Positions 3,485-29,081 are shown, counted from the stretch's first letter. The stretch: DNA of 35,169 bases from an uncultured bacterium (GCA_937911525.1 CALDQK010000828.1:1-35169); one strand, 5' to 3'. The notes: generated from the letters alone by a model not told the origin. Program-made: numbers and translations.

Positions 3485-3509
3485 GTGCGCACGAGACCCC
3501 CGTGCGCAC
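3485..3509 (+). promoter_or_regulatory. Hairpin that includes the LpxR-like start codon
   Basis: The self-complementary octamer GTGCGCAC occurs at 3485-3492 and 3502-3509 with nine bases between, so the transcript can form an 8-bp stem whose right arm begins with the GTG start codon at 3502. No Shine-Dalgarno sequence is visible. The structure would hide the start and may control translation. The pairing is visible; the role is inference. Confidence 0.4.
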
Positions 3510-4425
3510 CTTCTTCCTCGCCAGCCTGCTCTCCCTCCTCACCGCGTCGGCGGCGTCGGCCGACGACTGGGCGCCCACGAGCCTCTCGGCGACCTGGGAG
3601 AACGACCTCTTTGGAGGGTCCGATCGCCACTACACCAACGGCGCTGAGCTGGCGCTCACGGGCCGCGTGCCCAAGGGTGCCCTCTCCTTCTTCTTGGGCG
3701 AGGACGGTGGGGAGTGGCGCCTCAGCCTCGCGCAGAGCATCTACACCCCTGAGCGCCTGGACGCGCGAAATCTCGTGCTCGATGACCGCCCCTACGCAGG
3801 CTGGCTCCGCCTTGGGCTCTCGCTGTCGCACCGCAGCACACGTTGGCCGATCGCGAGTCGCGTCGGGCTCGAGCTGGGCGTGCTCGGCCCTCCGTCTGGC
3901 GCGGAGGCTGCCCAGCGGCTGTTCCACGGCTCGCTGACAGGCTCCTCGCCCCCGCAGGGCTGGGGGCACCAGATTCCCACGGAGGTAGGCCTGCGCTTCC
4001 ACTACGAGCTCTCGTACCGAGCCTGGCGCGAGGTGATCCTCGGCGCGGACTGGGAGCTCGAGCCCCGTTTTGCGTGCTCGTTCGGGAACGTGACGATCGA
4101 CGCGAGCCTCGGCGCCCGCCTGAGGGTTGGCCGGTTGCCGGACGCCTTCGCCACGGCCGAGCCTCCTCGCTGGAGCGCCTTCGTGACCTTGGGCGGCCGG
4201 GTGCGCTTTGTCGGCCACGACGTGTTCCTGAACGGAAGCCTGCTCCGGCCTGGTGGACATCGGGTGCGGCGCCGACACCTCGTGGTCGATCTCGAAGCCG
4301 GGTTCACGATCGAAGTGCTGGGCGCCCTCGCCCTCACCTACTCCCACACCCTCAGAGCGCCGGAGTTCGTCGGGCAGGACGGCTGGGATCAGTTCGGCTC
4401 CCTGAGCCTGACCTGGTCCTGGTAA
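3502..4425 (+). CDS. LpxR-family (DUF2219) outer-membrane lipid A deacylase
   Basis: The product is 307 residues, the usual length for LpxR/DUF2219 outer-membrane beta-barrels. Salmonella LpxR removes the 3'-acyloxyacyl chain from lipid A. A signal peptide (MRTFFLASLLSLLTASAASA) is followed at about residue 32 by the family signature WENDLFGGSDRHYTNG, which carries the Asn-Asp pair of the active site. DDRPYAGWL lies near residue 94. Near residues 130-160 come LGVLGPP, then QRLFHGSL with the expected His, then PQGWGHQIPTEVGL. The chain ends in alternating hydrophobic strands and a terminal aromatic (SLTWSW). GTG 3502 is the only possible start, because an in-frame TAG lies at 3481. The gene shares a 20-bp upstream repeat with the porin gene that follows. 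Deacylase activity is inferred from the family. Confidence 0.85.
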   Translation: MRTFFLASLLSLLTASAASADDWAPTSLSATWENDLFGGSDRHYTNGAELALTGRVPKGALSFFLGEDGGEWRLSLAQSIYTPERLDARNLVLDDRPYAGWLRLGLSLSHRSTRWPIASRVGLELGVLGPPSGAEAAQRLFHGSLTGSSPPQGWGHQIPTEVGLRFHYELSYRAWREVILGADWELEPRFACSFGNVTIDASLGARLRVGRLPDAFATAEPPRWSAFVTLGGRVRFVGHDVFLNGSLLRPGGHRVRRRHLVVDLEAGFTIEVLGALALTYSHTLRAPEFVGQDGWDQFGSLSLTWSW

Positions 4426-4453: not shown

Positions 4454-4502
4454 GCACCTCCTCCGCGCCTACGTTTCGCGCGGAACGCCAACAAGGAGGT
4501 GC
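4454..4502 (+). promoter_or_regulatory. Leader hairpin sequestering the porin ribosome-binding site
   Basis: GCACCTCCT at 4454-4462 is perfectly complementary to AGGAGGTGC at 4494-4502, which is the porin Shine-Dalgarno sequence itself. Between them, CGTTTC (4472-4477) and GGAACG (4482-4487) form a second stem with a GCGC loop and one T-G wobble. In the folded leader the strong AAGGAGGT would be fully paired, which is the layout expected of an RNA thermometer or another translational switch. The pairing is visible; regulation is inferred. Confidence 0.5.
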
Positions 4503-4504
4503 AC

Positions 4505-5764
4505 ATGTTTCGGAATGCGATGTCGCTGGCCCTGATCTTCGCGCTGTGCGGCGCGGCGGCTGGCCAGGAAGCGGTCCCCAACTCGGACGAGCAGGAGCTG
4601 GAGGACCGGATCAAGAAGCTCGAGCGGCAGCTCGAGGAGGTCACGGTCACCGCGCAGCGTGCGCGGGAGAGCCTGGAGGAGACGCCGATCCTCGACGCGC
4701 TGCGGAGCGTGGAGGTCTATGGCTTCGTGGACGCGGCCTACAGCTTCAATCTGCGCGACCCCAGCGGACGCCGAGGGCGAAACCGGCTGCGGCTGAACGA
4801 CCCGGACCACAACAGCTTCGGAATCCCCTACGCCAAGCTCGGGCTCATGCGACGGGTCAGCGGCCTCAACGAGCTGGACGCCGGCTTCCGCTTCGAGATC
4901 GGCGCCGGGCGACTCGCGGAGGAGGCCTTCAACCAGAGCGGGGACGTGCTGGGCTCGGGGTCGCTTGCGATCCCTCAGGCCCACATCGACCTCCAGATCC
5001 CCACGCCCTTCAACCCGCTGCTGCTGCGCGTCGGGCGGACCTACGGCTGGTTCGGGATCGAGAGCCTCGATCTGCCCGCCAACCCCAACTACTCCCTCTC
5101 GCACTTCGCGCAGTTCGGCCCCAAGACAACCACCGGGCTGAGCCTAGGCATGGACCTTGGCGCTGGCCTCCGCTACACGCAGTACGTCGTCAACGGCTGG
5201 GATCGCGTGCTCGACAACAACGATGCCAAGACCCTGGGCGGTCAGCTGGCGTGGGAGCTCGACGACCCCTTGGTCAGCCTGGCGCTGAACTGGATCTACG
5301 GCGCCGAGCGCGACGACAACGCCGGAGACCAGCGCTGGATGGTCGAACTCGCCGCTGCCTGGCAGCCCACCGAGAGCCTCGACCTGCGCGCGGCCTTCCG
5401 CTACGGCCAGGAGGAGATCTCGGGGCAGCACTACAGCGATCCGGACGAGACGGCGAACTTCGGTGGGTTCCTGCTGATGGCCAAGCAGTCGTTCTTCAAG
5501 GTGGAGGGCGCGGACTACTACCGCCTGGCCCTCGGCGTGCGCGGCGGTCTGTTCCGTGACGAAGGTGGGTCGCGCTCCGGCGCCGACCAGACCCTGGGTG
5601 AGCTGACCGGCACCCTGACCTTCAACCTGCTCGAGAACGCGGCCTTCCGCGTGGAGTACCGACGCGACTTCTCCAGCCGCGGAGACGCCTTCGTCGGCCA
5701 TCGCGGCACGAGCAGCCGGAGCGGGCAGGACACGCTCTCGTTCGATCTCAGCTATTCGTTCTAG
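4505..5764 (+). CDS. Outer-membrane beta-barrel porin, BBP2-like
   Basis: The product is 419 residues. A signal peptide (FRNAMSLALIFALCGAAAGQ) is followed by a short coiled coil (ELEDRIKKLERQLEEVTVTA, about residues 29-50) and then a long run of amphipathic strands from VEVYGFVDAAYSFNL to the C-terminal DTLSFDLSYSF. The final Phe is the usual outer-membrane insertion signal. Motifs such as GFVDAAYSF near the start, GIPYAKLGL, VGRTYGWFGIESLDLPANPN and WDRVLDNNDAKTLGG resemble the putative beta-barrel porin-2 family. I chose ATG 4505 because AAGGAGGT ends four bases upstream; GTG 4499 lies inside that site. The transcript leader can fold over the ribosome-binding site. A strong hairpin follows the stop. 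The substrate is unknown. Confidence 0.8.
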   Translation: MFRNAMSLALIFALCGAAAGQEAVPNSDEQELEDRIKKLERQLEEVTVTAQRARESLEETPILDALRSVEVYGFVDAAYSFNLRDPSGRRGRNRLRLNDPDHNSFGIPYAKLGLMRRVSGLNELDAGFRFEIGAGRLAEEAFNQSGDVLGSGSLAIPQAHIDLQIPTPFNPLLLRVGRTYGWFGIESLDLPANPNYSLSHFAQFGPKTTTGLSLGMDLGAGLRYTQYVVNGWDRVLDNNDAKTLGGQLAWELDDPLVSLALNWIYGAERDDNAGDQRWMVELAAAWQPTESLDLRAAFRYGQEEISGQHYSDPDETANFGGFLLMAKQSFFKVEGADYYRLALGVRGGLFRDEGGSRSGADQTLGELTGTLTFNLLENAAFRVEYRRDFSSRGDAFVGHRGTSSRSGQDTLSFDLSYSF

Positions 5765-6808: not shown

Positions 6809-7039
6809 ATCTGCGTCGTCTGCTCCGGCATGAAACGTGCCAAGCAGTGTCTCGAAACGGACCGGCCGACGGTCAGAAAACGACTTCCGGCGTACCAGAT
6901 CGGACGACCCCAGCCAGGCGGGTAGGTCGGCACCAAGCTCAAGAGTGACGGGCGCTCCGCGATGTCGGAGGGGCGATGCAGACTATCGGGATTCGCCTGC
7001 GCGGATGCCGAACATAGCACTAACGCCCTCGGGAGTAGC

Positions 7040-8926
7040 ATGAGCAGACCTGTCCCCCACTTCCACAAGATCAAGAGGCTCGAAATCAGCGGAGGAGGCT
7101 TCCTCGGTGACGTCTCGGTCGACCTCGCCGACGGGCTGAACTGCCTGATCGGCGGCCGCGGCGCCGGAAAGACGACGGCCCTCGAGTTCCTGCGCTACGC
7201 CCTGGCGCAAATGCCAGACCCGCGCCGCCACCGCGCACGGCGCGAGGTCCTCGAGAACCTGGTCGAAGGCAACCTCGGCGCTGGGCAGGTGGCGGTCGAG
7301 ATCGAGACGCGCGACGGCGTCAGCTATCGGGTCGAGCGAGTGGGCGGGGAGGAGCCGGTCGTGCTCGACGACACCGGCCAGCCGACCTCGCTCTCCGTGG
7401 CAGGGCTGTTCGGTGCTGAGGTCTACAGCCAGAACGAGATCGAGCGGATCGCCACCAGCCCGAGCTTCCAGCTCGACCTGATCGACAAGTTCCGCGAGGA
7501 GGAGCTGGGCGAGATCCAGCGCAAGCTCCTCCTCCTCGACGGAGTGTTGGGCAACAACGCCAGCGAGATCCTCTCCTTGGAGGCGCAGGTGGAGGAGCTC
7601 GAGAGCCAGCTGACCGAGCTGCCTCTCGTGACCGAGCGACTCGAGAAGGGCTTTCAGGTCCGCGCGGCCGGCGAAGGCTCCGAGTTCGAGCGGGAGGTTC
7701 GCCACAAGGGCTTGCGCGAGCGTGAGCGGCGCCGAGTCCAGACCGGCTTCGAGCACCTCAACGCGATTCGCGATTCCCTCGAGGCGACAACGACGCTCTG
7801 CCGACGAGCCGTCCAGCGCCGTGAGTCCGCCGAACTCGAGCGCGGCCCCAATCAAGGAGTGTTGTCCCAGCTCGACACCACCTACCTGAACGTCTGCGAG
7901 GACGTACGCAGCCTCCTCGACCAGGCGCTCGATCGCCTCGGACAAGGCGCGGGCGACGTGGAGACGCTCGCCGCCGAGCTGCAGGACGCTCATCGGAGCC
8001 AGGAGCGCAGCTACAACGGCCTGCTCCAGCAGCACAACGAAGAGCAGGACCAGGCGCGGGAGCGGGTCAAGCTGCAGAAGCGCAGCGCGGACCTCCTGGA
8101 GAAGCAGCGCGACCTCGAGGCTCGGCAGCAAGAGCTGGAGGCCAAGCGGCGGAAGCGCCGCGAGCTCGTTCACGGATTGAAGGAGCTCTGGCAGCACCGG
8201 ACCCGCCTCCGCGAGGACGTCGTCCGCTTCCTCAATGGCCGCCTCGCGCCGGAGATCCGCGTCTCCCTCGATCCTGCGAGCGAGCGCTCTCGCTACAAGC
8301 AGCTGCTCTGCGAGACCTTCCAGGGTGTCGGCCGCCCCTACAAAGCGCCGGCCGAGAAGGTCGCCAAGAAGCTCCGCCCGGACGCGCTGGCCGAGATCGT
8401 GGAGGCGGAGGATCCGCTGCAGCTCGTCGAGCGCTGCGGCGTGAGCGCCAGCCAGGCCCGCTGGATTGTCAGCCGCCTCCAGACTAGCCGGGCGCGCCTC
8501 GAGCTCGAGACCGTGGAGCTCGGCGACGTGCCCAAGATCGAGCTCAGGGACGGTGACTACAAGGCCGCTCCCAAGCTGAGCACAGGCCAGAAGTGCACCA
8601 CGATCCTGCCGATTCTCCTGCTCGACAGCGAGAAGCCCCTCCTGATCGACGAGCCCGAGGGCAACCTCGACAACGCGTTCGTCTACCACACGGTGGTCAA
8701 GAAGATCCGTGAAGCCAAGCAGACGCGGCAGCTCGTATTCGTGACCCACAACCCCAACATCCCCGTCCTCGGCGAAGCCGACCGGGTGGTGGTTCTCTGC
8801 TCTAACGGCGCCCGAGCGCGAGTGGCCGCCTGCGGCTCCGTGGACGAGGTTAAGGAGGAGATCGAGACCATCCTCGAAGGCGGCCGCGAGGCCTTCGAAG
8901 AGCGGAGGCGTCGCTATGGTCGCTAG
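7040..8926 (+). CDS. SMC/TrlF-like ABC-type ATPase
   Basis: The product is 628 residues with the head-coil-head layout of SMC, RecN and TrlF-like ATPases. Walker A GGRGAGKTT is at residues 38-46 and a Q-loop-like SQNEIERIA at about 135. A long charged coiled coil occupies about residues 155-430. ABC signature LSTGQK is at 513-518, Walker B LLIDEPEGNLDN has its Asp-Glu at 537-538, and an H-loop VTHNPNIPVLG follows. The C-terminal half closely resembles the ATPase half of the anti-phage protein TrlF, but no PHP nuclease domain is present. ATG 7040 has GGGAG four bases upstream; an in-frame ATG at 6962 lacks one. Its end overlaps the kinase gene by 11 bases. It probably binds or remodels DNA or senses nucleic acids; partners are likely the two downstream regulators. 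Confidence 0.85.
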   Translation: MSRPVPHFHKIKRLEISGGGFLGDVSVDLADGLNCLIGGRGAGKTTALEFLRYALAQMPDPRRHRARREVLENLVEGNLGAGQVAVEIETRDGVSYRVERVGGEEPVVLDDTGQPTSLSVAGLFGAEVYSQNEIERIATSPSFQLDLIDKFREEELGEIQRKLLLLDGVLGNNASEILSLEAQVEELESQLTELPLVTERLEKGFQVRAAGEGSEFEREVRHKGLRERERRRVQTGFEHLNAIRDSLEATTTLCRRAVQRRESAELERGPNQGVLSQLDTTYLNVCEDVRSLLDQALDRLGQGAGDVETLAAELQDAHRSQERSYNGLLQQHNEEQDQARERVKLQKRSADLLEKQRDLEARQQELEAKRRKRRELVHGLKELWQHRTRLREDVVRFLNGRLAPEIRVSLDPASERSRYKQLLCETFQGVGRPYKAPAEKVAKKLRPDALAEIVEAEDPLQLVERCGVSASQARWIVSRLQTSRARLELETVELGDVPKIELRDGDYKAAPKLSTGQKCTTILPILLLDSEKPLLIDEPEGNLDNAFVYHTVVKKIREAKQTRQLVFVTHNPNIPVLGEADRVVVLCSNGARARVAACGSVDEVKEEIETILEGGREAFEERRRRYGR

Positions 8927-10076
8927 CGCTCCGCCCGCCGATCACCTGCCCGCCGACCTCGAGGCTGCGTTATCCAGCGACGACTGGCAGACTCGCTGCC
9001 AGGCGGTCTCCCGAGCCACCGGCTTGCTCAAGGGCAAGCCTGGGCCCGACCCCGTGCACTCCCTCCTCGCGCATCTCCAGCGGCTCGCCAACGACACCGA
9101 GTGGCAGGTCCGGCAAGAGGTCGCGACGGCGCTGCAGTTCAGCCCCAACGAGGACGCAGACCAGCTCCTGGCTCGCCTGGCGACGGACCCCACGAGCTGG
9201 GTGTCGCAGGCAGCCGAGGAAGCGCTCAGGCAGCGCCGGCGGCTGGCCCGTAAGGAACAGCGCGAAGGCAAGCGTGTGGCGAGCGCGCTGAAGCGGGTTC
9301 ACCGGCTTCAGGAGCGTTGCTCGCCAGAGCTCGCCCGAGAGATCGAAGAGGTGGGCATGGCCTACTTCCAGGCCGTCGCCTTCGGCTGCTCGCACGACGT
9401 GCTGACCCTGGCCACCTCGGTGCAGTACTCGATCCGCCAACTTGGGCGAGAGCTCGCCCGGCGGAAGGTCCCCAAGAAGGCCTGGGAGGACAGCGTCGAG
9501 GCAGCAGCCCGGCGTTGTCAGATCGTGAAGGGGATCGCCAAGAACATGCGCGCACTCGCGCGGCAGGCGATCCCTCCCGTTCGCCGAATCAGCCTGCGGC
9601 GCGCCGTGGACGAGGCGCTGGGGATCGTCGGCGACTGCTTCGCCGTCAAGCCGGGCGCCCCGCAAGTGACGACCGAGGTGAAGGTTCCTCGGCACCTCAA
9701 GGTCGAGGTCCCACGCGAGCGTCTCGTCCAGGCGCTCGTCAATCTGCTCCAGAACGCTTTCGAGGCGATCCAGGAGACGGGCACGGTGCGACTCACCGCC
9801 AAGGCCAAGGACGATTTGGTCGTGCTCGACATCACGGACACAGGCTGTGGGATTCACGCCGAGGAGCAGCAGGTGATCTTCTTCCCCGGCAAATCCACCA
9901 AGAAGGGTCGCCTCGGGACCGAGCACAACACCGGCTGGGGCCTGTCGCTGGCCCGGAAGTTCGTGGAGGAAGACTGCCAGGGCCGGATCTCGCTACGCAG
10001 CGAGCGAGGAGTGGGGACGACGATCACGCTCGTGCTCCCCATGGAACGAAGCGAGGATGACGACGATGTCCAGTAG
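8916..10076 (+). CDS. HEAT-repeat sensor histidine kinase (GHKL ATPase)
   Basis: The product is 386 residues with no membrane segment, so it is cytoplasmic. Residues of about 15-105 form two or three HEAT-like helical repeats (WQTRCQAVSRATGLL, EWQVRQEVATALQFS, SWVSQAAEEALRQRRR). Residues of about 140-215 resemble a dimerisation helix pair with a plausible phospho-acceptor His160 in GCSHDVLTLATSV. The GHKL ATPase follows with N-box LVNLLQNAFEAI (Asn276), G1 DTGCGI (Asp308) and G2 GWGLSLARKF. The start overlaps the ATPase gene by 11 bases and the end overlaps the response-regulator gene. The HEAT domain takes the place of a usual sensor domain, so the input may be a protein partner, perhaps the ATPase. 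Confidence 0.85.
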   Translation: MVASAPPADHLPADLEAALSSDDWQTRCQAVSRATGLLKGKPGPDPVHSLLAHLQRLANDTEWQVRQEVATALQFSPNEDADQLLARLATDPTSWVSQAAEEALRQRRRLARKEQREGKRVASALKRVHRLQERCSPELAREIEEVGMAYFQAVAFGCSHDVLTLATSVQYSIRQLGRELARRKVPKKAWEDSVEAAARRCQIVKGIAKNMRALARQAIPPVRRISLRRAVDEALGIVGDCFAVKPGAPQVTTEVKVPRHLKVEVPRERLVQALVNLLQNAFEAIQETGTVRLTAKAKDDLVVLDITDTGCGIHAEEQQVIFFPGKSTKKGRLGTEHNTGWGLSLARKFVEEDCQGRISLRSERGVGTTITLVLPMERSEDDDDVQ

Positions 10077-10935
10077 GCACAAGGCCCTGATCGTGGATGA
10101 CCAGCGCGGGATCATGGAGATCCTGGGCGCGATCCTCTCCTCCCTCGATCACGACTACGACTACGCCCGCACCCAGCGAGAAGCGCGAGAGCTGCTCAAG
10201 GCCAACCGCTACTGCTACATCCTGCTCGACCTTGAGTTCCCAGCGGACGATGGCGTCACCGCTCGCATCCAGACCGGCTTCAACTGTCTGGCGGAGATCC
10301 GTCAGCGCTTTCACCGGGACGATCTTCCGGTGATCGTCATGACCGCGCATGAGAAGGGCACCGAATACCCGATCCGGGCGCTGCAGCTCGGCGCCAACGA
10401 TTTCGCGCAGAAGGACTTCGAGGAGGACCTCGAGCCCCTCGACGTGAAGATCCGGCGCGTGCTCGCCCAGGCGTGTGATGTCACGGGCGACTGCCGGAGG
10501 AAGCCCAGCCGGCGAGCGCGGGGCTCAGGCGAGGGCGCCGAGGCTGGGCACACGTTCCACTTCCACGGGGAGAGCCGTAGACGCCGCTACCGCATGGAGA
10601 TCAACGGCAGCCCGTGCTGGGTCTGCCTCTCGACCTTCACGATACTCTGGAAGCTAGCCAGCGCGGCGTCCCAAAGCCATGGGGGCTGGGTCGAAGGCCG
10701 GGAGCTCAACAGCGGCAACTACCACAACGCCATCGCGCGAATGAAGAAAGACCTCGAGCAGGTTGCCCACCTGGACGGGCGTTTCGTCGAGAACGATGGC
10801 CAGGGTCGGTTTCGGGTCAATCTCCCCACGGGCACCTTCTCTTTCGACGCTCAGGCCATGAGAGTGCACCACCCGCGTCTGGTCGAAAGGTATCCGCATT
10901 GCCAAGGGAAGGCCACAGTAGGGGCAGGTCGGTAG
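10066..10935 (+). CDS. OmpR-type response regulator
   Basis: The product is about 289 residues. A receiver domain fills the first 125 or so, with the acidic pair in ALIVDDQRG, the phospho-acceptor Asp in ILLDLEFPADDG, the switch Thr in VIVMTAHEKG and the conserved Lys in DFAQKDF. An Arg- and Gly-rich linker (about 145-165) leads to a winged-helix-like domain: CLSTFTILWKLASAASQ, then NYHNAIARMKKDLEQ as a possible recognition helix, then a GRFRVNLP wing. I chose ATG 10066 because GAGG lies nine bases upstream; at ATG 10057 the GAGG abuts the start codon. It overlaps the kinase gene, making a cognate pair very likely. Its target promoters are unknown. It ends 22 bases before the stop of the convergent helicase gene. 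Confidence 0.85.
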   Translation: MSSRHKALIVDDQRGIMEILGAILSSLDHDYDYARTQREARELLKANRYCYILLDLEFPADDGVTARIQTGFNCLAEIRQRFHRDDLPVIVMTAHEKGTEYPIRALQLGANDFAQKDFEEDLEPLDVKIRRVLAQACDVTGDCRRKPSRRARGSGEGAEAGHTFHFHGESRRRRYRMEINGSPCWVCLSTFTILWKLASAASQSHGGWVEGRELNSGNYHNAIARMKKDLEQVAHLDGRFVENDGQGRFRVNLPTGTFSFDAQAMRVHHPRLVERYPHCQGKATVGAGR

Positions 10936-10957: not shown

Positions 10958-13900
10958 CTAGGGACTCACGACTACCTGCATCCTCATTTCGAAAGTCTCG
11001 GCCAAGTAGGCGGCAGTAGCGCCAAAGAGTCGAAGGGTCTGGTTCGCGCGGTCCGACCCGGACACTAGCTTCTTCCGCGATATCCCTGGCTGCACCAGGA
11101 CGACCTCAAATCGGGTTCGCTTCTGTCGAGCGAGAGCACGGACCTTGGGCAAATCTCCGAGCCCACCCTTGTCGAACCGGGAAGGAGAACCCGCAGTGAG
11201 ACGACGCGTCTCTCGGCGACGGATGTGCTGCAGGAGGCGCTCGACCGACTCACCCCACTTGACCGACTTCTGGGCCTGCCCGCACAGTTCGTAGATGTCC
11301 AGAACTCTCAGGCCGGGAGACTCCTCCTTCGAGTACTTGCAGTGGATGAGCCGGACCAGGAGTTCGTCGGCTTCGTCATAGATGGCCACGATGTCGGCCA
11401 CCTCCCCAGCTCCGTCGTCATCGAAGAGCAAGAGAGGTCCCTTGCTCGATTCCTCAACGATCATCGCCCGCTGGATTGAGTCAGCGATGCGCGTCTCCCC
11501 CTGACTCTCCACCTTGATGTTGGTATTAGCCCAGCTCCGACTCCGGACCTGAGCGATGTCGTAGATCGCCTTGCTCTTGGCGCTCTGCGCGCGAACGAGA
11601 AGACAGCCTTCGACCAGTACCGAGGTGTCGTCGAGCCAAAGATACGGTGGGTTCTTTGAGAAAAACTCCACTCCCGAAGCCTCCTGCTTGCGAACACGAA
11701 CAAGCAGGTCGTCCTCGGAGGTGCATGCCACCCGATAACCTTCGGTTTCCTCATCCGTGAGCGTGAGTCGGTAGGCAGTCCGGTGCCCGCCATGCAGAAC
11801 GCTGAAATCGACGCTACTGCGAGTGGAAGCGTCGACCTGCAGCCCACAGTCTTCCAGGTCGACTGTTGAGCCTTCGCGCACCACTACTGTCCGGTCGAAG
11901 ACCTGCTCAAAGACGTAGTCCGCCCAGTCGGCGACGACTACGGTCCGCCCCTCTGGGATCTCAGCTACGACTTCGGGGAAGAGAGCGCTCTGGAGGATCT
12001 CCTCGAGTTCAACCGATTCGTCCACGATCTTGGAGCCAACGTGCCTACACCAATGGGTCCACTCCAGGAGGGAGCCGGCGGCGCGAGACCAGACCTTTCC
12101 CTTCTGCGAAGCCCCAACGCTCGCCTTATCACCAGCCTCATAGCCAGCTCCGAAGAGCATGGCGATGTAGGCATTCTCAGCGACTCGCTCCTTGAGTCCC
12201 TGGCCCACGTCCAAGCCCATGAACTGGCGGTAGCGAATCGGACCGACTAGCCGCTTCTTCAGGCCGACGTTGGTAAGCAACAGGCGGTTGATCCCATGAA
12301 GCACTCGGTGCACGCGCTTGTCAGCGATCCGCAGGCCACCGGGTGAGACGATCTTGACGAAGTTATCCGGAAGATCCTTGCGGCTCGTGAACACGAACAA
12401 GAGGTTCTGGCCTTCGTCATGGAAGAGCGCGGTGCAGTGGAAATTCTCGTTCTCGAGTTCCTTGATGCGCCCCCACTCCACAGCGCGGCGTTCGCGCTCG
12501 ACGACAACAGCGACTCGGCTAATGGTGTTGATGGCGAGGCGTGAGACGACCCCGTCGTTGTACCGAGACTTCAGGCCCTCGAAATCTACCTTCGGCCCAG
12601 CCTGGTAAACAAAAGCGCTGAACTTGGGATGCACAGAGCGGAGGGAGAAACCTCGAATCCCATCGAAAACGAACCCGCGCACGAAATCCTGGAATTCACG
12701 TTCGTGACCGACCGAACTCTCGTAGCTTCCCTCGATCAACTGATCCCAGTCGGCGTCTTGGCTATACAGCCTGGAAATCTCGGTCTGCACGCTCTCGTCC
12801 GCGAGGTTGGCTACCACCGTTGCGTCCCCGAGCGGGACTGAGCCCGCCCGGGTGAACCGCCCGACGAACTGCAGAGTGACCGGGAGGGACTTGTGCGCGT
12901 CATGGACTGCCGCGATCTTCAGGGGCGGAAAGTCGAACCCCTCGCCGAGCATGTCGACGCACACGATCACCTTGCTCTGACCACCCAAGAGCCTCGCCCG
13001 TGCTGCCTCCTTGAGCTCTTGGCGTAGTCCGCTGTGTAGAAGGACAGGAGAGAGGTCAGGGCACTCCTTCTCGTAGAGCGGAAGGACCTTGCTCGCGCGA
13101 GCCCTGGAGGAGCAGCGAGCCATGAGTGCGTGCTGGAGCCCGGCCTTCAGGTCGCTTCGGAGCTGACCCACGGCCGCTTTACATATTGCTGCGTCAGATC
13201 GAGCTCGTAGGTGCTCAACTACGGGGCGGAAGTGAATCTGACAGAAATACTCCTGGTCGCGGCAGCGGGCCAGTGGATAGCTGTAGATGATCTCTCCACC
13301 AATGTGCCTCCCGTCATTGCGAAAGGGAGTGGCGGTGAACTGCAGGATCCGCTTGCCCTCAAAGGAGGTCAGGACTTTCTTCCAGGTCCTGGCGCCGAGG
13401 TGGTGTGCTTCGTCGACTGCGATCAGGTCGCAGTGATCGACAACCTTGGCCAGCTGAGCCTCGGGCATCTTCGCCAGGATGGGCATGGTCGTAACAAGGA
13501 TGTTCACACCCTTGAGAAGGCGGTTCAGGTCAGCCACGTTCTTGAGGCCTCGCCGGAGCATCCCGACAAGCGGATACGACGAGGTCGGTGCGAGCACCCC
13601 GATGTCCACGAGTTTGCCCCACTTGCTGGCCTTCTCATGGAATTGGGCCCGCAGCGCATCAGTGGGAACGATGACCAAGGTGCAGCGGGGCGCCGAGGTC
13701 GCAATGACGGCAAGAAGCGTCTCAGTTTTCCCGGTTCCCGTTGGAAGCACGACTGTCGCGGGGGCGACGCTTCGAGTCCAGTGAGCGAAGATTGAGAGGA
13801 GCGCTCCTCGCTGGGCTTCGCGGAGGGACGAATCGGTACTCTGGACAGGGACTTGGGGAGCCCAGGTGCTGGCCACTTGGCCAGGCCCCGCGTCCCCAGC

Positions 13901-14149
13901 GTCATGCAGTGGTGACTTCGTGCAGCGCCACCTGGTGCCGTTCCCGACGAAGACCGTGGTATCTGATGCTCGGTCTGCGGTGCGCTTGGTTCTTGCCAAG
14001 AGCGCTTGAGCGCCCGTCTCGCTTGTAACGCGCTGGACTTTTGCGCGGCCGACCCGATCCTCGACCTGGTCGCACACCGTCAAGTCGACCGCAAAGGTGT
14101 GGGTGAGTGGATTCCCACCGATCTTCAGGTCAACGTCGCGAAGCTGCAT
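10958..14149 (-). CDS. Superfamily 2 helicase with C-terminal nuclease-like domain
   Basis: The product is 1063 residues. Motif I PTGTGKTE lies near residue 138, motif II DEAHH near 245, motif III TATPFRND near 280, and LGEGFDFPPLK with QFVGRFTRAG (motifs V and VI) near 430-460. This is a DEAD/DEAH-type helicase core like those in type III restriction and several anti-phage systems. A long middle region has no motif I can name. Near residues 915-960, ADIVAIYDEADELLVRLIHC is followed by KYSKEE and a conserved-looking DIYELCGQAQKSV. The D...HCK arrangement resembles a variant PD-(D/E)XK nuclease, and I recall this block at the end of other defence helicases. GC content is lower than in its neighbours. 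It runs convergently to the regulator operon and divergently from the kinase-Thg1 genes. Confidence 0.8.
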   Translation of the reverse strand: MQLRDVDLKIGGNPLTHTFAVDLTVCDQVEDRVGRAKVQRVTSETGAQALLARTKRTADRASDTTVFVGNGTRWRCTKSPLHDAGDAGPGQVASTWAPQVPVQSTDSSLREAQRGALLSIFAHWTRSVAPATVVLPTGTGKTETLLAVIATSAPRCTLVIVPTDALRAQFHEKASKWGKLVDIGVLAPTSSYPLVGMLRRGLKNVADLNRLLKGVNILVTTMPILAKMPEAQLAKVVDHCDLIAVDEAHHLGARTWKKVLTSFEGKRILQFTATPFRNDGRHIGGEIIYSYPLARCRDQEYFCQIHFRPVVEHLRARSDAAICKAAVGQLRSDLKAGLQHALMARCSSRARASKVLPLYEKECPDLSPVLLHSGLRQELKEAARARLLGGQSKVIVCVDMLGEGFDFPPLKIAAVHDAHKSLPVTLQFVGRFTRAGSVPLGDATVVANLADESVQTEISRLYSQDADWDQLIEGSYESSVGHEREFQDFVRGFVFDGIRGFSLRSVHPKFSAFVYQAGPKVDFEGLKSRYNDGVVSRLAINTISRVAVVVERERRAVEWGRIKELENENFHCTALFHDEGQNLLFVFTSRKDLPDNFVKIVSPGGLRIADKRVHRVLHGINRLLLTNVGLKKRLVGPIRYRQFMGLDVGQGLKERVAENAYIAMLFGAGYEAGDKASVGASQKGKVWSRAAGSLLEWTHWCRHVGSKIVDESVELEEILQSALFPEVVAEIPEGRTVVVADWADYVFEQVFDRTVVVREGSTVDLEDCGLQVDASTRSSVDFSVLHGGHRTAYRLTLTDEETEGYRVACTSEDDLLVRVRKQEASGVEFFSKNPPYLWLDDTSVLVEGCLLVRAQSAKSKAIYDIAQVRSRSWANTNIKVESQGETRIADSIQRAMIVEESSKGPLLLFDDDGAGEVADIVAIYDEADELLVRLIHCKYSKEESPGLRVLDIYELCGQAQKSVKWGESVERLLQHIRRRETRRLTAGSPSRFDKGGLGDLPKVRALARQKRTRFEVVLVQPGISRKKLVSGSDRANQTLRLFGATAAYLAETFEMRMQVVVSP

Positions 14150-14287
14150 AGGCAGATCCCAACGGACTGGGAGTCCTAAACTTACAGGCTATCCCCATGG
14201 TCTGACGTGTTCCGGGCGGTTGTGCCGAACCAAAGGACTTGCGACAGGTACGGCGCTCCACCCCGTCTGAGGATGGCGAGGTGGAGC

Positions 14288-14767
14288 ATGGACCTGGTCA
14301 TGTTCATAGGGCTGCAGGGAGCCGGGAAGACGAGCTTCTTCCGAGCGCGGTTCGCCCTCACCCACGTTCATGTGAGCAAGGACCTCTACCCGAGGAGCGC
14401 GCGCAACAAAGGCGAGCGCCAGGCCCGCGAGATCGAGGCGGCTTTGGCCGAGGGCCGATCCGTGGTGGTCGATAACACCAACCCCACCCGGGTTGAGCGG
14501 GCCGAGCTCGTGGCCCTGGCCCACCGGTACGGGGCTCGGAGGGTGGGCTACTACTTCCAGTCCGTCCTCGCCGACTGCCTCGAACGGAACGAGCAGCGCG
14601 CAGGCCGAGCCCGGATCCCTGACGTGGGCCTCTACTCGACCAGCAAGCTGCTGGAGCTGCCCTCCTTCGCGGAGGGCTTCGACGAACTGTTCTACGTCCA
14701 GCTCGGTGAGAGGCAGGAGTTCCACGTGAGTCCATGGAGGGAGACCGATGAAGCACGCGACGCTTGA
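14288..14767 (+). CDS. T4-PNK-like polynucleotide kinase (P-loop)
   Basis: The product is about 159 residues, a single P-loop kinase domain of the AAA_33 / T4 polynucleotide-kinase type. Walker A IGLQGAGKTSF starts at residue 7. SKDLYPRS lies near residue 36, DNTNPTRVER near 72 is the typical second motif with its Asp, and a lid with several Arg (ERNEQRAGRARIP) follows. Such kinases phosphorylate 5'-OH RNA or DNA ends. I chose ATG 14288 because GAGGTGGAG lies just upstream; ATG 14273 is a close alternative. It overlaps the Thg1-like gene by 20 bases, and a phosphatase remnant follows, so the trio looks like an RNA-end repair set. The RNA substrate is inference. Confidence 0.8.
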   Translation: MDLVMFIGLQGAGKTSFFRARFALTHVHVSKDLYPRSARNKGERQAREIEAALAEGRSVVVDNTNPTRVERAELVALAHRYGARRVGYYFQSVLADCLERNEQRAGRARIPDVGLYSTSKLLELPSFAEGFDELFYVQLGERQEFHVSPWRETDEARDA

Positions 14768-15509
14768 GAAGCGCATGCGCGACTTGGAGTATTTCGGCGA
14801 CACCCGGGTGCTGACCGAGACCTGGTCGGTGGTCCGGGTCGACGGGCGCTCCTTCTCTCGGTTGACCGAGGCCAACTTCGAGAAGCCCTTCGACGCGCGC
14901 TTCCACGAGGCGATGGTCGCCGTGAGCCGGGCCCTGCTTCAAGAATTGAGCGGGATCTACGCCTACACCGAAAGCGACGAGATCTCCGTCCTACTGCCAC
15001 GCGAGTGGCGCATGTTCGGGGGCCGCGTCGAGAAGATTGTGTCGGTTGCCTCAGGCCTGGCCAGCTCAGTCTTCACGCACCACGGCGGGGTCCCAGCCCA
15101 CTTCGACGCAAGGGTCTGGCTCGGCCCGACGGACACCTCGGTCGTCGACTACTTCCGCTGGCGACAAGGGGACGCGCTCCGCTGCTCCCTGAACGGCTGG
15201 TGCTACTGGACCCTGCGCAAGGCAGGCCAGACCAAGCGTGAGGCCACCGCAGCCCTAGAGGGCCGCTCCTTCGAGGACAAACGGACGCTCCTCGCCGAGC
15301 ACGGGGTCACGCTGGCCGACCTCCCCGGCTGGCAGCGCCAGGGGGTGGGGATCTACGAAGAGACCTACAAGAAGACGGGATTCAACCCAAGGCTCCAGCG
15401 GGAGGTCTGGGTTGTGAGGCGGCGTCTTCGGGTCGAGCCAGAGCTACCATTGGGGGAGGAGTACGCCCGGTTCCTGCGGCGACTCCTGGCGGGAAAGGTC
15501 CAGTCGTGA
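14748..15509 (+). CDS. Thg1-family 3'-5' RNA polymerase (Thg1-like protein)
   Basis: The product is 253 residues, the usual size. Thg1 adds G at the 5' end of tRNA-His, while bacterial Thg1-like proteins repair 5'-truncated tRNAs by 3'-5' templated addition. The metal-binding motif VVRVDGRSFSRLT has Asp32, and YAYTESDEISVLL near residue 75 carries the second acidic pair. RCSLNGWCYWTLR and YEETYKKTGF complete the family pattern. A good GGAGGGAGA ribosome site precedes ATG 14748. The gene overlaps the kinase gene at its start and the phosphatase remnant at its end (GTGA). Acting after a kinase and phosphatase that clean RNA ends would suit tRNA repair. That pathway is inferred; the family call is firm. 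Confidence 0.88.
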   Translation: MKHATLEKRMRDLEYFGDTRVLTETWSVVRVDGRSFSRLTEANFEKPFDARFHEAMVAVSRALLQELSGIYAYTESDEISVLLPREWRMFGGRVEKIVSVASGLASSVFTHHGGVPAHFDARVWLGPTDTSVVDYFRWRQGDALRCSLNGWCYWTLRKAGQTKREATAALEGRSFEDKRTLLAEHGVTLADLPGWQRQGVGIYEETYKKTGFNPRLQREVWVVRRRLRVEPELPLGEEYARFLRRLLAGKVQS

Positions 15510-15664
15510 GGGTCTTGGTAGGCGACATCCACGGCTGCACCCGCAAGTTCGACGCAATCCTGAGCGCCGTCGATTTCCAGTTCAGCGACACGCTGTTGAC
15601 CTGCACGGGCTACGTCGACTGCGGGCCCCGACAGCACCCGATTACCTGTGGAGTAGGCCGTTGA
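15506..15664 (+). pseudogene. Decayed calcineurin-type phosphatase remnant
   Basis: The open frame gives only 52 residues: VRVLVGDIHGCTRKFDAILS, then AVDFQFSDTLL, then TCTGYVDCGPRQHP. It is the N-terminus of a metallophosphatase of the Pnkp/PrpE/ApaH type, whose normal second motif is GDYVDRGPDS. Here the Asp codon of GDY is missing (GYVD), the Arg is Cys, and an extra C shifts the frame so that GPDS is readable only in the next frame. The remaining two-thirds of the domain are absent, and the sequence switches straight into the next gene. GTG 15506 overlaps the Thg1-like stop. A functional enzyme is not expected. It marks a former third member of the kinase-Thg1 cluster. Confidence 0.7.
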
Positions 15665-17517
15665 AGTCAGCGCTGTACAGCAACATGATGCGCGCGACGG
15701 AAGAGTTAAAGAGCATCGTCTCCTCACTGAGCACTCGCACCTTGGTTTCCAGGTGCGCCGCCTACATCACCTTCGACGAGCGCAAGAAGACCAGCCAAGT
15801 CCAGTTGAGCTCCCCCTTCAAGGAGATCTACTTCCTCCTTGAGATCATGCTGGCGACCGAGGAACCGTCTCCCGAGGCGGAGGTCGAGCTCACAGAAGGC
15901 ACGTGGCAGAGGCTCGCTTCTCTGTTGGAAGAGGTGATTCAGCAGTACGGCCTGATGTATTGGGACGCCCCCGACACCCAACCGGACGCCATTGAGGACT
16001 GGGAGCGAATCACCTCTGTCGCAATGCCGGTCTTCTTGGACTACCACAACACGCCAACGCTGGCGTCTGCGCAGCAGCTTCGGGAGAAGGCCATAGGTCT
16101 TCTCGCTCCCTTCGACGACGCCATAGAGGAAGGGCATGGCCTAACGGCAAGCCAGGCGGTGGCCGCCGTCGACACCCTTCAAGCAGTTCTTCAGGAAAAC
16201 CTCGACTCCCTTGTCGCAACTACGGGGGACATGCTTGCTCTCCAGAAACATGCTTGTCGGCCTCCATTCGACGTAAAGAGAATTCAGGAGGAGGCCAAGT
16301 CTCCCGAGAACGTCGCCCTAGCCACGAAGTACTTTCGGCTTCTCAACGATGCATTCGTCGTCCGCCGAGATCAGATCGCAGCAGCCTTCGACTCGGAGGT
16401 AGCGAACGCGTTCTGGAAGCTGTTCTCCTCCCGCAGGCAAGAGGTTGCTGACCCCAAGCTCTACTTCACTGATTTCTACAGATCGGAGAAGGCGCCGCTC
16501 TTCGAGATCGAGGACGGGGTGGCATGCTGTCCCTCGATCAACGCTGTATATGCAGCAGTGCTCGATCGATTGACCTGTTCCATGCTCTCGAACGGTGAAC
16601 GTGTAGAGGCGTTCTTACGCCACCGCGGTCGCTATCTGGAAGAGCAAACGGCCGATGCCCTAGCCCGAGTTATCGGACCGGGCGCCACGGTTTGGCCCGG
16701 GCTCTATGAGACCAGAGACCTTCACCACGAGCACGACCTGGTCGTCGTGGTTGGTCGCACCGTGCTCGTTGTGGAGTGCAAGTCGACTCCACTTCGGGAA
16801 CCGCTTCGAGACCAGGGTCGGGCGTTTCCCAGGCTCAAGCGCGACTTCGAGAAGACGATCCAGGAAGGTTCTGACCAAGCCTGGAGGATACGAACGGCGC
16901 TCTTTCATGAACGACGAGAGTTCCCGTTGTTCGACAAGACCCGTGACCTAGTTCTGACGCTAAGACCTGACGACGTTGACGAGGTCTTCGAGATCGTCGT
17001 AACAGCCGATCGGTATGGCGCCCTCGCTACTGACCTGACGATGCTCTTGGAGAGGTCAGAGAATCACCCTTCACCATGGGCCGTCAATCTCTGGGACCTC
17101 GACGAACTCACGAGACGTTGGCGGCCGTTGGGCCAATCCCCTGAGTCCTTCTTCGAGTATCTGCGGACGCGTCGGGAGGTCCACGGCTTGGTCTTCAGCG
17201 AGGATGAGTTCTGCTTTGCAGGCTATTTCATCCACCACGGTCCGTGGCAGCCGGGGCTTGCAGGCCAGGCGGACAGGGTGTTCCTGAACCCGTCCTATGG
17301 GTCGATCTTTGATGACGCCTATCAAGCGGAGATGCGCGGGGAACAACTGCCGATTCCGAAACGTCAGCCCCCTGTAATGATGGATCCACGAACAGACGAG
17401 TTCGTGCACATGGGACCTGCCACGCCTCAGGTCAGGCGGAAGGGAAGAAAGACCGGGCGGAACGCTCCCTGTCCCTGTGGGTCTGGAAAGAAGTACAAGC
17501 GCTGTTGCCTAGGCTAG
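15661..17517 (+). CDS. PD-(D/E)XK nuclease-like protein with SEC-C tail
   Basis: The product is 618 residues. The first 330 residues or so are helical and not recognised. A nuclease-like core follows: HEHDLVVVVG with Asp359, then TVLVVECKST with Glu372-Cys-Lys374, the D-x(12)-E-C-K spacing of the PD-(D/E)XK fold. The C-terminus is a SEC-C zinc-binding motif, APCPCGSGKKYKRCC, which is common at the ends of SecA and of many nucleic-acid or defence proteins. TTG 15661 has GGAG eight bases upstream and overlaps the stop of the phosphatase remnant (TTGA); ATG 15685 is the alternative. GC content is lower than in the phage-like module to the right. A DNA- or RNA-cleaving defence role is plausible but not shown. 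Confidence 0.75.
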   Translation: MKSALYSNMMRATEELKSIVSSLSTRTLVSRCAAYITFDERKKTSQVQLSSPFKEIYFLLEIMLATEEPSPEAEVELTEGTWQRLASLLEEVIQQYGLMYWDAPDTQPDAIEDWERITSVAMPVFLDYHNTPTLASAQQLREKAIGLLAPFDDAIEEGHGLTASQAVAAVDTLQAVLQENLDSLVATTGDMLALQKHACRPPFDVKRIQEEAKSPENVALATKYFRLLNDAFVVRRDQIAAAFDSEVANAFWKLFSSRRQEVADPKLYFTDFYRSEKAPLFEIEDGVACCPSINAVYAAVLDRLTCSMLSNGERVEAFLRHRGRYLEEQTADALARVIGPGATVWPGLYETRDLHHEHDLVVVVGRTVLVVECKSTPLREPLRDQGRAFPRLKRDFEKTIQEGSDQAWRIRTALFHERREFPLFDKTRDLVLTLRPDDVDEVFEIVVTADRYGALATDLTMLLERSENHPSPWAVNLWDLDELTRRWRPLGQSPESFFEYLRTRREVHGLVFSEDEFCFAGYFIHHGPWQPGLAGQADRVFLNPSYGSIFDDAYQAEMRGEQLPIPKRQPPVMMDPRTDEFVHMGPATPQVRRKGRKTGRNAPCPCGSGKKYKRCCLG

Positions 17518-18411: not shown

Positions 18412-19493
18412 GCGCGTCGGTCGCTTCGAGCCCCCACCACCAGAGCGGGCTTGTTCTTTGGCAGCGCTGCCCGCGACAGTACTGGTTTCAGCAAGTCGCC
18501 AAGCTGCTCCCGGACTACGCCACAACGGGCTACGCCGGACCGCTGGGGGTGGCCGGGCACGTCGGCTGCCAAGTCGTCCTGCGGGACCACGCCGCGAGCA
18601 GGGCGCGTGTCCTCGACGCGATGCTGGAGGCCTTCGAGGCGGAGCTCGCCAAGGGCCAGGAGCAGGGGCGCACCTACGACCCGGACCAGACCGGCCGCGC
18701 GCTCGAGCGGCTCGAGCAGGAGCACCTCGAGTTGGTCCTACGACTGGCCCAGGACCGCCGGGTCCACGCGATCGAGTGGGCCCACACGGAGCTGCCCTTC
18801 GAGTGGCAGGACCAGCACGGGCGCGTGTTTCGCGGGACGGTGGACGCGCTCGGTCGCGCGACCGATTACGTCGAGGGCTTCTCGGTCTTTGGGCGCGAGC
18901 CCCTCGACCTGGAGCCGGGCGACTGGGTCATCGTCGATTGGAAGTTCGGGCGGGAGCTCGAGCTGAGCCGCGTCGGGCTCTCGCTCAACGTGCAGCTCGC
19001 CTTCTACAGCGTGGCCGCGTCCAAGCGCTTCCCCGGCCGGCGATTCCGCGCCTGCCTTGGGGTCCTGCGTGAACTGGCCAGCAGCCAGCGGCCCACCGAC
19101 GCCGACGGGCAGCCGATCCCCAAGACGCTGGAGGAGCTGAATCCGGCCTACGTGGAGGCATTCGCTGGCGGACAGCCGATCACCAACGAGCTGCGCGCTC
19201 GGGCGGAGAAGAGTCGGCGGCGGTTTCGCCGGGACAACGCGAACGTCCCCAAGCGGATCAAGCGAACGAACCCGGTCTGGGAGGCGGCGCGAGACGCACC
19301 GAAGGGGCCGCTGTTCCACGAGGCCCGGATCGCTTGGGACGTCGTGGCCCCCACGCTGCGCCAGACGATCCACGAGATCGAGATCGCGCGGCGAGACGGC
19401 GGCGAGGGGGCCTTCCCAGCTCGTGGGCCCGTGACCGGCGCCTGCCGCCTCTGCCCCTACCACCGCCAGTGCGTGGCCCGCCCTGCCGAGTAG
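18408..19493 (+). CDS. Cas4/RecB-like PD-(D/E)XK exonuclease with Fe-S cluster
   Basis: The product is 361 residues. Nuclease motifs are FRGTVDALGR with Asp146, VIVDWKFG with Asp177 and Lys179, and NVQLAFYS. One Cys near residue 21 (LWQRCPRQYW) and a C-terminal C-x2-C-x5-C (CRLCPYHRQC) give the four cysteines that hold an iron-sulfur cluster in Cas4 and AddB-type nucleases. Such enzymes resect DNA ends during recombination or phage replication. No CRISPR array or cas1/cas2 is in the window, so this is a phage-type recombination nuclease rather than a CRISPR protein. It starts with an ATGA overlap and is followed 29 bases later by the zinc-cluster protein gene. Confidence 0.85.
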   Translation: MSASVASSPHHQSGLVLWQRCPRQYWFQQVAKLLPDYATTGYAGPLGVAGHVGCQVVLRDHAASRARVLDAMLEAFEAELAKGQEQGRTYDPDQTGRALERLEQEHLELVLRLAQDRRVHAIEWAHTELPFEWQDQHGRVFRGTVDALGRATDYVEGFSVFGREPLDLEPGDWVIVDWKFGRELELSRVGLSLNVQLAFYSVAASKRFPGRRFRACLGVLRELASSQRPTDADGQPIPKTLEELNPAYVEAFAGGQPITNELRARAEKSRRRFRRDNANVPKRIKRTNPVWEAARDAPKGPLFHEARIAWDVVAPTLRQTIHEIEIARRDGGEGAFPARGPVTGACRLCPYHRQCVARPAE

Positions 19494-19522: not shown

Positions 19523-20500
19523 ATGACCCCCAACCAGCAAGAGCTCGTCGCCGACTGGATCCTCGAGAACCCCGGCTCGACGCCACAGCAAGCGATCGCC
19601 GCCCTCCGGGAGACCGGCCAGTGGCCGCAGGAGAGCGCCGCGGGCGCGATCCCGGCCCTGGACGTGGGCCCGCCCCGCGAGATCGTGCCCGAGGGAGCTG
19701 CGCTCGCGCCGGAATCCTCCCAGGCCACCGGAATGGCCCAGCACCTGCCCCTGGCGACGCCGGAGCCCGAGGCCGACGCCATGGCGGTCGGGGCAGGCCT
19801 CGAGGAGTTCGGGGCCGACGACGTGCGGATCCCCCAGCTCAAGATCCGACAGGCCCAGACCAAGAACGCCGACGACGTCCCTGAGGGGACCTGGTTCCTG
19901 ACCTCCGACCTGGAGGGCGCCTCGACCACCCGTGAGGTGGTGTTCCTGGAGATGCGCAAGGAGCGCAGCCTCCTCCTGCCCTACGGCGGCGGCGACGCGG
20001 CGGACGCGGCGATCCACCGGATCCACCAGCAGACCGGCGTCGAGGTGCCCCAGGGCTGGGAAGGGCCGGTGTGCTTCTCGCGCGATCGCGTTCAGCCCGT
20101 TCAGCAGGAGGGGATCGAGGTCCTGGCGAGCGACTGCAAGCGCTGCCCCATGTCGCGCTGGCGCTCGGTCCGCGGGCGACGGATCCAGGACTGCGGGGAG
20201 TCTTACCGGATCTTGTTCTACGACCTCGAAGCGCAGATCCCGGCCGTGTTCTACGCACGGGGGTCGGCGATCCGCCCGACTCGGGACCTGCTCACCAACC
20301 TCCAGGTGGCCTGCCGCCGACGGAAGCTGCCCGCCTACGGCTTCAGCTTCGTGATCTCGACCAAGAAGCGGGACACGAACGACGGCACCTACCACGTGCC
20401 GGTCTTCGGCCGACCGATCCAGATCGAGGACGCCGACGAGATCACCCAGTTCGGCGGGATCCGCGCGGCCTGCGCCGCGGTGCAGGTCGAGGAGGACTGA
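19523..20500 (+). CDS. Phage-type zinc-cluster protein, function unknown
   Basis: The product is 325 residues. The N-terminus NQQELVADWILENPGSTPQQ looks like a small three-helix module. A proline- and alanine-rich linker follows to about residue 95. The main domain starts VRIPQLKIRQAQTKNADDVP and contains SDCKRCPMSRW and RIQDCGESYRILFYDL, so Cys residues near 210 and 235 may bind zinc. I recall similar proteins next to RecB/Cas4-like nucleases in phages and mobile elements, where a single-strand DNA-binding role is suspected. ATG 19523 has AAAGGA six bases upstream. The stop overlaps the next start (TGATG). I do not assign a function beyond replication or recombination accessory. Confidence 0.6.
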   Translation: MTPNQQELVADWILENPGSTPQQAIAALRETGQWPQESAAGAIPALDVGPPREIVPEGAALAPESSQATGMAQHLPLATPEPEADAMAVGAGLEEFGADDVRIPQLKIRQAQTKNADDVPEGTWFLTSDLEGASTTREVVFLEMRKERSLLLPYGGGDAADAAIHRIHQQTGVEVPQGWEGPVCFSRDRVQPVQQEGIEVLASDCKRCPMSRWRSVRGRRIQDCGESYRILFYDLEAQIPAVFYARGSAIRPTRDLLTNLQVACRRRKLPAYGFSFVISTKKRDTNDGTYHVPVFGRPIQIEDADEITQFGGIRAACAAVQVEED

Positions 20501-21697: not shown

Positions 21698-21999
21698 GGA
21701 CGTTGTGTCAGGAGGCCCACGAGCTGCTCATGGCTCGCGAGGGCGCCTACGGCGAGATGCTCGCCAGCTGGAAGAGGATCGCGGGGGCAGTCAGTCGTCG
21801 CACCGGGACCTACATGTGCCCCGAGACGGCTCTGTGGGTGCTGATCGAGATGAAGCTCGAGCGGGACCGCCACAGCCCCGAAAACCCCGATCACCTGCGG
21901 GACGCGATCGGCTACCTGGGGATCCTGGGCCAGGTGCGAGCCGAGCAGGCCAGCGTCCGCAGCTCGGACACGCAGGTCCTCGCGCTGGAGCGACTGTGA
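21694..21999 (+). CDS. DUF6378-like phage protein
   Basis: The product is 101 residues. The pattern REGAYGEMLASWKRIAGAVS, then PETALWVLIEMKLERDRHS, then NPDHLRDAIGYLGILGQV matches the small phage family DUF6378 as I remember it (an all-helical MazG-like fold in appearance, with acidic residues along the helices). Its role in phages is not established; a nucleotide-processing function has been an obvious guess. ATG 21694 overlaps the upstream stop (ATGA), and the stop overlaps the helicase start (GTGA). It is good evidence that the operon is of phage or mobile-element origin. Confidence 0.6.
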   Translation: MRTLCQEAHELLMAREGAYGEMLASWKRIAGAVSRRTGTYMCPETALWVLIEMKLERDRHSPENPDHLRDAIGYLGILGQVRAEQASVRSSDTQVLALERL

Positions 22000-29070: not shown

Positions 29071-29081
29071 GCTACCGAGGA
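29010..29081 (-). tRNA. tRNA-Asn (anticodon GTT)
   Basis: Read on the minus strand from 29081, acceptor arm TCCTCGG pairs with CCGAGGA. The D-arm is GCTCAATGGTAGAGT. The anticodon stem GGTGG/CCACT carries loop CTGTTAA with anticodon GTT, and the T-arm is GCTGG-TTCGAAT-CCAGC. The discriminator is G at 29010, and no CCA is encoded. The recombinase reading frame on the plus strand ends within this gene, at 29070, which marks the tRNA as the likely integration site of the element to its left. The small basic protein gene lies just upstream on the same strand. Confidence 0.93.

Follow-up and report, generated by a model that had tools for sequence, protein, structure and literature searches.

In proteins of the TrlF family (NF045780; Photorhabdus temperature-restricted locus, PMC7554251), an N-terminal PHP region of approximately 290 residues precedes an ATPase part, and no pair of histidine kinase (HK) and response regulator (RR) accompanies them. 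A related ATPase forms the C-terminal half of the anti-phage protein Ppl (NF042955, PADLOC Ppl). The subject of this study is a set of three genes (the trio) located on 35,169 nucleotides of DNA from an uncultured bacterium (GCA_937911525.1, CALDQK010000828.1:1-35169), the whole of which is called the window. The first gene product (A) is homologous to the ATPase part of TrlF along its whole length, whereas it has no PHP region and an HK-RR pair (B and C) is encoded behind it. Compared to Ppl, A scores 118 bits against a cut-off of 1000, lacks the PHP domain and is accompanied by the additional signalling genes. Each part of the trio is a member of a known family; the assembly and the phage setting are new. 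We consider it somewhat probable that the trio is a signalling cassette mainly of temperate tailed phages and related serine-recombinase elements, in which it would serve as a developmental switch (induction or early-to-late).

Two-component logic in a mobile gene set is also found in Detocs, the third gene of which encodes a receiver fused to a nucleoside phosphorylase or another effector, whereas the trio has no phosphorylase-type effector and C consists of a receiver and a winged helix. The HEF_HK/Response_reg_2 pair (PMC8011034; PF19191 and PF19192) resembles B and C in being soluble, HK-like and RR-like and sometimes located near restriction-modification (R-M) genes. It differs in having no TrlF ATPase, in contrast to the TrlF-type ATPase of the trio, and neither of the two families was matched by the trio proteins at E 0.1. 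With canonical NtrB/ZraS-type kinases and OmpR/PhoB-class regulators, the trio has in common the dimerization and histidine phosphotransfer (DHp) and catalytic (CA) domains with an aligned histidine, the D/D/T/K receiver and the OmpR-like fold. B differs from these kinases in its solubility, its HEAT-repeat input in place of a transmembrane sensor and its apparently obligate ATPase partner. The phage switches described to date are, to our knowledge, based on direct control by LexA, on peptide signals or on circuits of repressor and anti-repressor. In GIL01-like temperate phages, host LexA acts on the prophage lytic promoter (PMC4551915); similar LexA control is indicated for alphaproteobacterial trio loci, the putatively LexA-controlled operon of which starts with the ATPase-HK-RR cassette. 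No named system matched the trio in PADLOC 2.0, NCBIfam or Pfam. With PADLOC 2.0, only a partial Ppl and a weak mad3 match were obtained for A and nothing specific for B or C. No description of the trio was found in the open-access literature, including that on TrlF, phage-encoded two-component systems, TCAD and Detocs; an earlier mention in subscription papers, e.g. on ABC-ATPase classification, is possible.

The three genes are located on the plus strand and encode A (7040 to 8926), an ABC/SMC-like ATPase of 628 amino acids, B (8916 to 10076), a soluble HK of 386 amino acids, and C (10066 to 10935), an RR of 289 amino acids. The three open frames overlap as given in a preliminary description made from the sequence of the window, both overlaps being 11 bases long with ATG 10066 as the start of C. 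Its labels "SMC/TrlF-like", "HEAT-like kinase" and "OmpR-type" are confirmed by Pfam, NCBIfam and PDB profile matches and, for C, also by the fold. Alternative upstream starts are present at ATG 6962 for A and ATG 10057 for C. The start of A at 7040 is preferred over 6962, since a conserved non-coding block covers 6963 to 7002 and relatives also begin at 7040. A contains AAA_23/AAA_21 domains (Pfam) with a Walker A motif (7151 to 7177), an LSTGQK signature (8576 to 8593) and the Walker B/D-loop LLIDEPEGNLD (8639 to 8671), and its middle part is coiled-coil-like. Residues 34 to 653 match positions 287 to 944 of the 944 positions of the TrlF_fam_ATP profile (NF045780) with E 5e-95 and 320 bits, which is below the curated whole-protein cut-off of that model (350 bits). 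Because the match begins only at profile position 287, the PHP region, which forms the N-terminal 290 or so residues of TrlF, is absent from A.

B was found to be soluble, with matches to HEAT_2 (residues 15 to 105; HEAT repeats at 8958 to 9230) and HATPase_c (residues 268 to 377; 9717 to 10046), in line with the cytoplasmic kinase with a HEAT-like helical sensor described earlier. Pfam HisKA was not matched. The candidate phosphoacceptor H160 (9393 to 9395) is invariant and aligns with the phosphoacceptor histidine of ZraS and HK853, the H-box is intact and the N/G boxes of the catalytic domain are conserved (N276/N280/G310/G312/G340/G342). The AlphaFold2 model of B (predicted local distance difference test, pLDDT, 82.8) resembles A0A1B1IUJ1 among viral protein models, a protein of equal length and architecture (template modelling scores 0.75/0.77). 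C contains a Response_reg domain (Pfam; receiver at about 10087 to 10428), the pocket of which is complete, with D12, D55 (the phospho-acceptor, 10228 to 10230), T93 and K116 invariant in 21 sequences. Pfam Trans_reg_C was not matched. The AlphaFold2 model of C (pLDDT 84.5) was aligned by Foldseek with full-length KdpE, VanR, MtrA and RpaA over approximately 267 columns (E approximately 1e-9). As modelled, C has the beta platform and winged helix (about 10555 to 10845) of an OmpR/PhoB-class regulator. Its C-terminal DNA-binding part varies among loci, where one or two helix-turn-helix domains or, in a variant represented by locus L182, TCAD9 are found.

B and C follow A directly, in the same order and on the same strand, in 92 of 93 testable loci, cellular and viral (PHP-less relatives of A that are followed by 3 kb or more of sequence). 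None of the seven viral PHP-type relatives and none of the cellular ones is accompanied by B and C. Likewise, in 392 genomes of the host phylum, PHP-less relatives of A always occurred with B and C, and PHP-bearing relatives of approximately 900 amino acids with neither. Across the trio loci, the starts of B and C are located at the stop of the preceding gene or a few tens of bases from it, and the catalytic residues of all three proteins are intact. Pairwise distances calculated for the three proteins are correlated with one another (Mantel r 0.924, 0.864 and 0.868 for 94 trios; best of 500 permutations 0.09). That an ordinary two-component pair stands beside an unrelated ATPase by coincidence is refuted by the 92 of 93 adjacent loci, with the overlaps and the co-varying trees also speaking against it, and its probability is close to nil. 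Judged from linkage and co-variation, the trio is an obligate unit. The proposal of one functional unit made in the preliminary description is thus borne out by the linkage and the co-varying trees; homologues that are rarely neighbours, named there as the counter-case, were not encountered, and the statement that no such system had been described stands, as no named system was matched.

The 80 best loci of a scan of GTDB genome contigs belong to Planctomycetota, Pseudomonadota (Rhodospirillales, Aquamicrobium and Magnetococcales), Verrucomicrobiota, Lentisphaerota, Myxococcota, Acidobacteriota and one metagenome-assembled genome of Neomarinimicrobiota. The conservation across unrelated genomes, which had been suggested as a check, extends over seven phyla and viral contigs. 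Trio-type A was not found on plasmids, for which only PHP-type TrlF (approximately 29%) was present among the PLSDB matches listed. An apparent ATPase-HK fusion (L025/L056) lacks the C-terminal half of A and the HEAT part of B, is located on a short contig and reads as a deletion.

In a tree of 64 rows, all PHP-less ATPases, including the divergent variant L180/L182, form a single clade (support 97/91) apart from PHP-type TrlF; L183 (986 amino acids, without B or C) is a PHP-type row. Since the PHP-less ATPases fall into one supported clade, the PHP region was apparently lost, or never gained, once, and the two-component output seems to be tied to that event. The variant is a divergent trio in the prophage of an isolate genome (L182, 9992 to 14120; also L180), in which no HEAT part was detected in B and the receiver of C is joined to TCAD9 (kinase-like matches) in place of a winged helix.

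In a scan of IMG/VR, trio ATPases of full or nearly full length were found on about 33 contigs (L146 to L178), nearly all of them with B and C, so that about 30 viral contigs carry the whole trio. A large terminase was detected in 11 of 18 trio-bearing viral records (ten by phrog_15, one by phrog_2), while the remainder are mostly short fragments. The PHROGs portal and terminase models were informative for these phages, and the portal model PF04860 was uninformative. The 61-kb record G397 encodes in its first part a serine recombinase with DUF2924, A-B-C, an HTH_17 protein, Sak4, DUF669, a helicase, a primase and a RuvC-like protein, and in its later part a ParB-methyltransferase, a terminase (1e-139), a portal protein (2.5e-99), a maturation protease, the major head protein and a tape measure protein. 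The position of the trio between integrase and early replication genes is shared by G397, G405, G410 and the loci L079/L083/L095/L096, and a divergent variant of this layout is found in G401/G406 and L093/L115/L143. A CI/LexA-type S24 repressor is absent from 17 of the 18 viral records, the exception being the divergent G412. Among cellular trio loci with enough flank, 35 of 74 share genes with trio-bearing phages, compared to 1 of 20 random windows of the same genomes (p = 4e-4). The commonest neighbours upon clustering of 87 cellular loci were large serine recombinases (20 loci), Sak4-like AAA proteins, DUF2924, DEAD-type helicases, DUF669, DUF3489-like proteins and WYL regulators.

Alphaproteobacterial loci and phages carry TTGACTC and a perfect GAACN7GAAC (consensus GAACAAA[AT]ATAGAAC) 118 to 139 bases 5' of the start of A. 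Read on the other strand, this box corresponds to the Caulobacter SOS box GTTCN7GTTC (PMC9578287). In the alphaproteobacterial prophages, it overlaps the putative promoter of the trio. It is present in ten alphaproteobacterial loci and in one chance-like match in 111 loci, with 1.4 expected by chance; the GAACN7GAAC match in L066 is probably a chance one. L138 and L238 carry the same SOS-type box. As L238 shares 95-97% identity with L079/L096 and further SOS-box rows are close relatives too, the independent lineages number about six. Upstream of the trio of Aquamicrobium aerolatum DSM 21857 (L124), the putative LexA site reads GAACAAAATAGGAAC. In verrucomicrobial loci of the prophage type, trio and replication operon are arranged divergently, with repeated palindromic putative TGATACCGGTATCA operators between them; L093 has five TGATACCGGTATCA half-sites in about 80 bases, and similar sites are present in L115, L114 and L137. 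At the level of predicted sites, the LexA boxes and operator clusters have the look of a switch region.

A mechanism can be proposed in which A responds in an ATP-dependent manner to DNA state, be it ends, damage or replication intermediates, or to a nucleoprotein. A would dock on the HEAT domain of B and set its kinase/phosphatase balance, phosphate would move from H160 of B to D55 of C, and phosphorylated C would activate or shut off promoters of the element. Host LexA would silence the cassette of the alphaproteobacterial loci until the SOS response, so that the action of the cassette would fall in induction. That the trio acts during induction is suggested by the putative SOS-controlled promoter common to it and the replication genes, which is the strongest discriminator between a phage switch and defence cargo. 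It is possible, and put forward more tentatively, that a new class of phage switches is represented, in which an SMC/TrlF-like ATPase and a His-Asp phosphorelay under LexA time or decide lytic expression and which arose once from nuclease-bearing TrlF; the TrlF defence ATPase would then have exchanged its PHP effector for a two-component output. If true, viruses would have one more means of reading the cell, namely a phosphorelay with input from a DNA-type ATPase, and sensor ATPases of a single family would be coupled to a nuclease in some cases (PHP-type TrlF) and to transcription in others. The question of a switch is directly testable, since trio-bearing isolates exist (Aquamicrobium aerolatum DSM 21857, Chthoniobacter flavus Ellin428, Terriglobus albidus and Plesiocystis pacifica).

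Defence-type genes surround part of the trio loci. Among 75 sampled neighbours of 30 loci without phage similarity, 79 PADLOC models were matched at 1e-15, compared to 4 for 75 control proteins; the number of defence genes is lower than 79, since many PADLOC models overlap. The matches include three type III methylases, two type III nucleases, two BrxL and others. Type III R-M genes and an OLD-like ATPase adjoin the trio in L055, and HsdR, a MORC-like protein and a WYL regulator in L100. A WYL-domain regulator is encoded beside the trio in L080, L081, L091, L100, L104, L123 and L134 and directly upstream of A in seven loci. These regulators recall the WYL repressors next to other defence operons. 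Given the R-M/BREX-type genes around the non-phage copies, a defence role of the trio is possible, and the same sensor-relay may be reused in defence-type and phage contexts.

The trio might accordingly be anti-phage defence or superinfection-exclusion cargo, in which A senses an invader and B, via C, switches on neighbouring defence or suicide genes; the relay would replace the fused PHP effector of TrlF/Ppl, and prophages would carry the trio as an immunity gene. This explanation, which draws on the kinship of A with TrlF/Ppl/AriA-type ATPases as well as on the PADLOC-type neighbours of non-phage loci (type III R-M, BrxL, others), on L055 and L100 and on the seven upstream WYL regulators, is regarded as rather unlikely. 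The PADLOC comparison covers 75 sampled proteins per set, and no conserved effector gene travelling with the trio was found in neighbour clustering, B and C being the only constant partners. The putative SOS-controlled promoter is shared with phage replication genes, and the trio occupies the switch position in phages and not a cargo hotspot. Immunity genes of prophages, in contrast, are generally expressed in the lysogenic state. Of the DNA or phage sensing reporting to transcription that had been proposed at the outset, the predicted phosphotransfer output to transcription is retained; a host defence device sensing phage is disfavoured by the 35 of 74 cellular copies sharing phage genes and by the viral contigs with the trio at the temperate-phage control region. 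The enrichment in defence islands, likewise suggested as a check, holds for non-phage loci (79 versus 4 models), but about half of the cellular copies are phage-like.

A general accessory module, i.e. a two-component system for DNA damage or replication stress that was repeatedly captured by mobile elements and regulates nearby genes (replication genes in phages, restriction genes in islands), would cover the phage and island contexts with one biochemistry and would fit the differing C-terminal DNA-binding parts of C. It is nevertheless quite improbable, as a stable chromosomal context was seen in three myxobacterial loci only and the trio recurs in the control region of phages with a regularity that random capture would not explain.

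Several results weigh against a switch in phage development. About half of the cellular loci do not resemble the phage core, and genes for R-M, BREX or WYL regulators surround some of the loci, which is not predicted by a pure phage switch. The SOS box was seen in alphaproteobacterial loci only, several of which are closely related, and cultured phages (INPHARED) gave partial distant matches but no trio-type A. A regulon of C was not found: the conserved 40-bp non-coding element (6963 to 7002, plus strand), a candidate promoter/operator of the trio, is present in the window, L034, L066 and L067 in one copy each, and no regulon could be drawn from a single occurrence per locus. No close viral contig was found for the window copy, and structural phage genes are absent from the window. 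A tRNA-Asn (29009 to 29081) overlaps the 3' end of the serine recombinase frame described below, and no direct repeat of it was detected as attachment site in the window or convincingly elsewhere.

In the favoured interpretation as a phage cassette, the window copy would belong to such a phage or serine-recombinase element or its remnant; as structural genes and a detectable attachment repeat are lacking, its assignment to a prophage-like element or remnant is the firmest the sequence allows. The window clade comprises the window, L034, L066 and L067. The window genome contains four trio copies (also on contigs C149, C390 and C938, L034 to L036), with 83% and about 36% identity to A, and two of the four are in a gene cluster with a terminase gene. 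Terminase genes adjoin the trio in L067 (same family) and L035 (the window's own genome), and L036 has a homologue in the same gene cluster. In L066 (same genus), the genes from the nuclease onward are located directly 3' of the trio, while four extra genes (10958 to 17517) separate the trio from the downstream phage-like genes in the window. The congeneric genome G164 (L066/L037) has an in-frame stop in B at residue 279 or so and a frame change in C at about residue 145; these interruptions may reflect decay of the L066 copy or an error of sequencing or assembly.

The downstream phage-like DNA module, on the plus strand, starts with a PD-(D/E)XK (RecB/Cas4-like) nuclease as its first recognised gene (18549 to 19493). 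It is followed by a split RecD2/exonuclease V-like helicase (20500 to 21489 and 21996 to 23195) with a DUF6378 gene (21703 to 21999) between the two parts, a RuvC-like Holliday junction resolvase (23192 to 23728, phrog_159) and a long frame (23725 to 29070) encoding Toprim (primase-like) and a large serine recombinase (Resolvase, Recombinase and zinc ribbon). This frame of 1781 amino acids is either a true Toprim-recombinase fusion or two genes read through. The tRNA-Asn at the recombinase 3' end suggests integration at a tRNA, and an empty-site search in the genus gave fragments only.

Among the extra genes, a ResIII/DEAD-type helicase of 1063 amino acids (10958 to 14149) is convergent with the trio and weakly similar to Dnd restriction proteins and PbeA; it may be a separate defence gene. 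Two overlapping genes at 14207 to 15509 encode an AAA_33 (polynucleotide-kinase-like) protein and a tRNA-His guanylyltransferase of the Thg1 family; they resemble a pair for RNA repair that was inserted 3' of the trio and ahead of the early phage-like genes. On the other side of the trio, genes for an LpxR-like outer-membrane lipid A enzyme and a BBP2-type porin are located at 3502 to 4425 and 4499 to 5764, respectively. Both are found repeatedly in the vicinity of the trio or of phage terminase genes, the former in the window, L034 and L066, the latter in the window, L034, L066, L067 and L035, and could be lysogenic-conversion or receptor-altering cargo.
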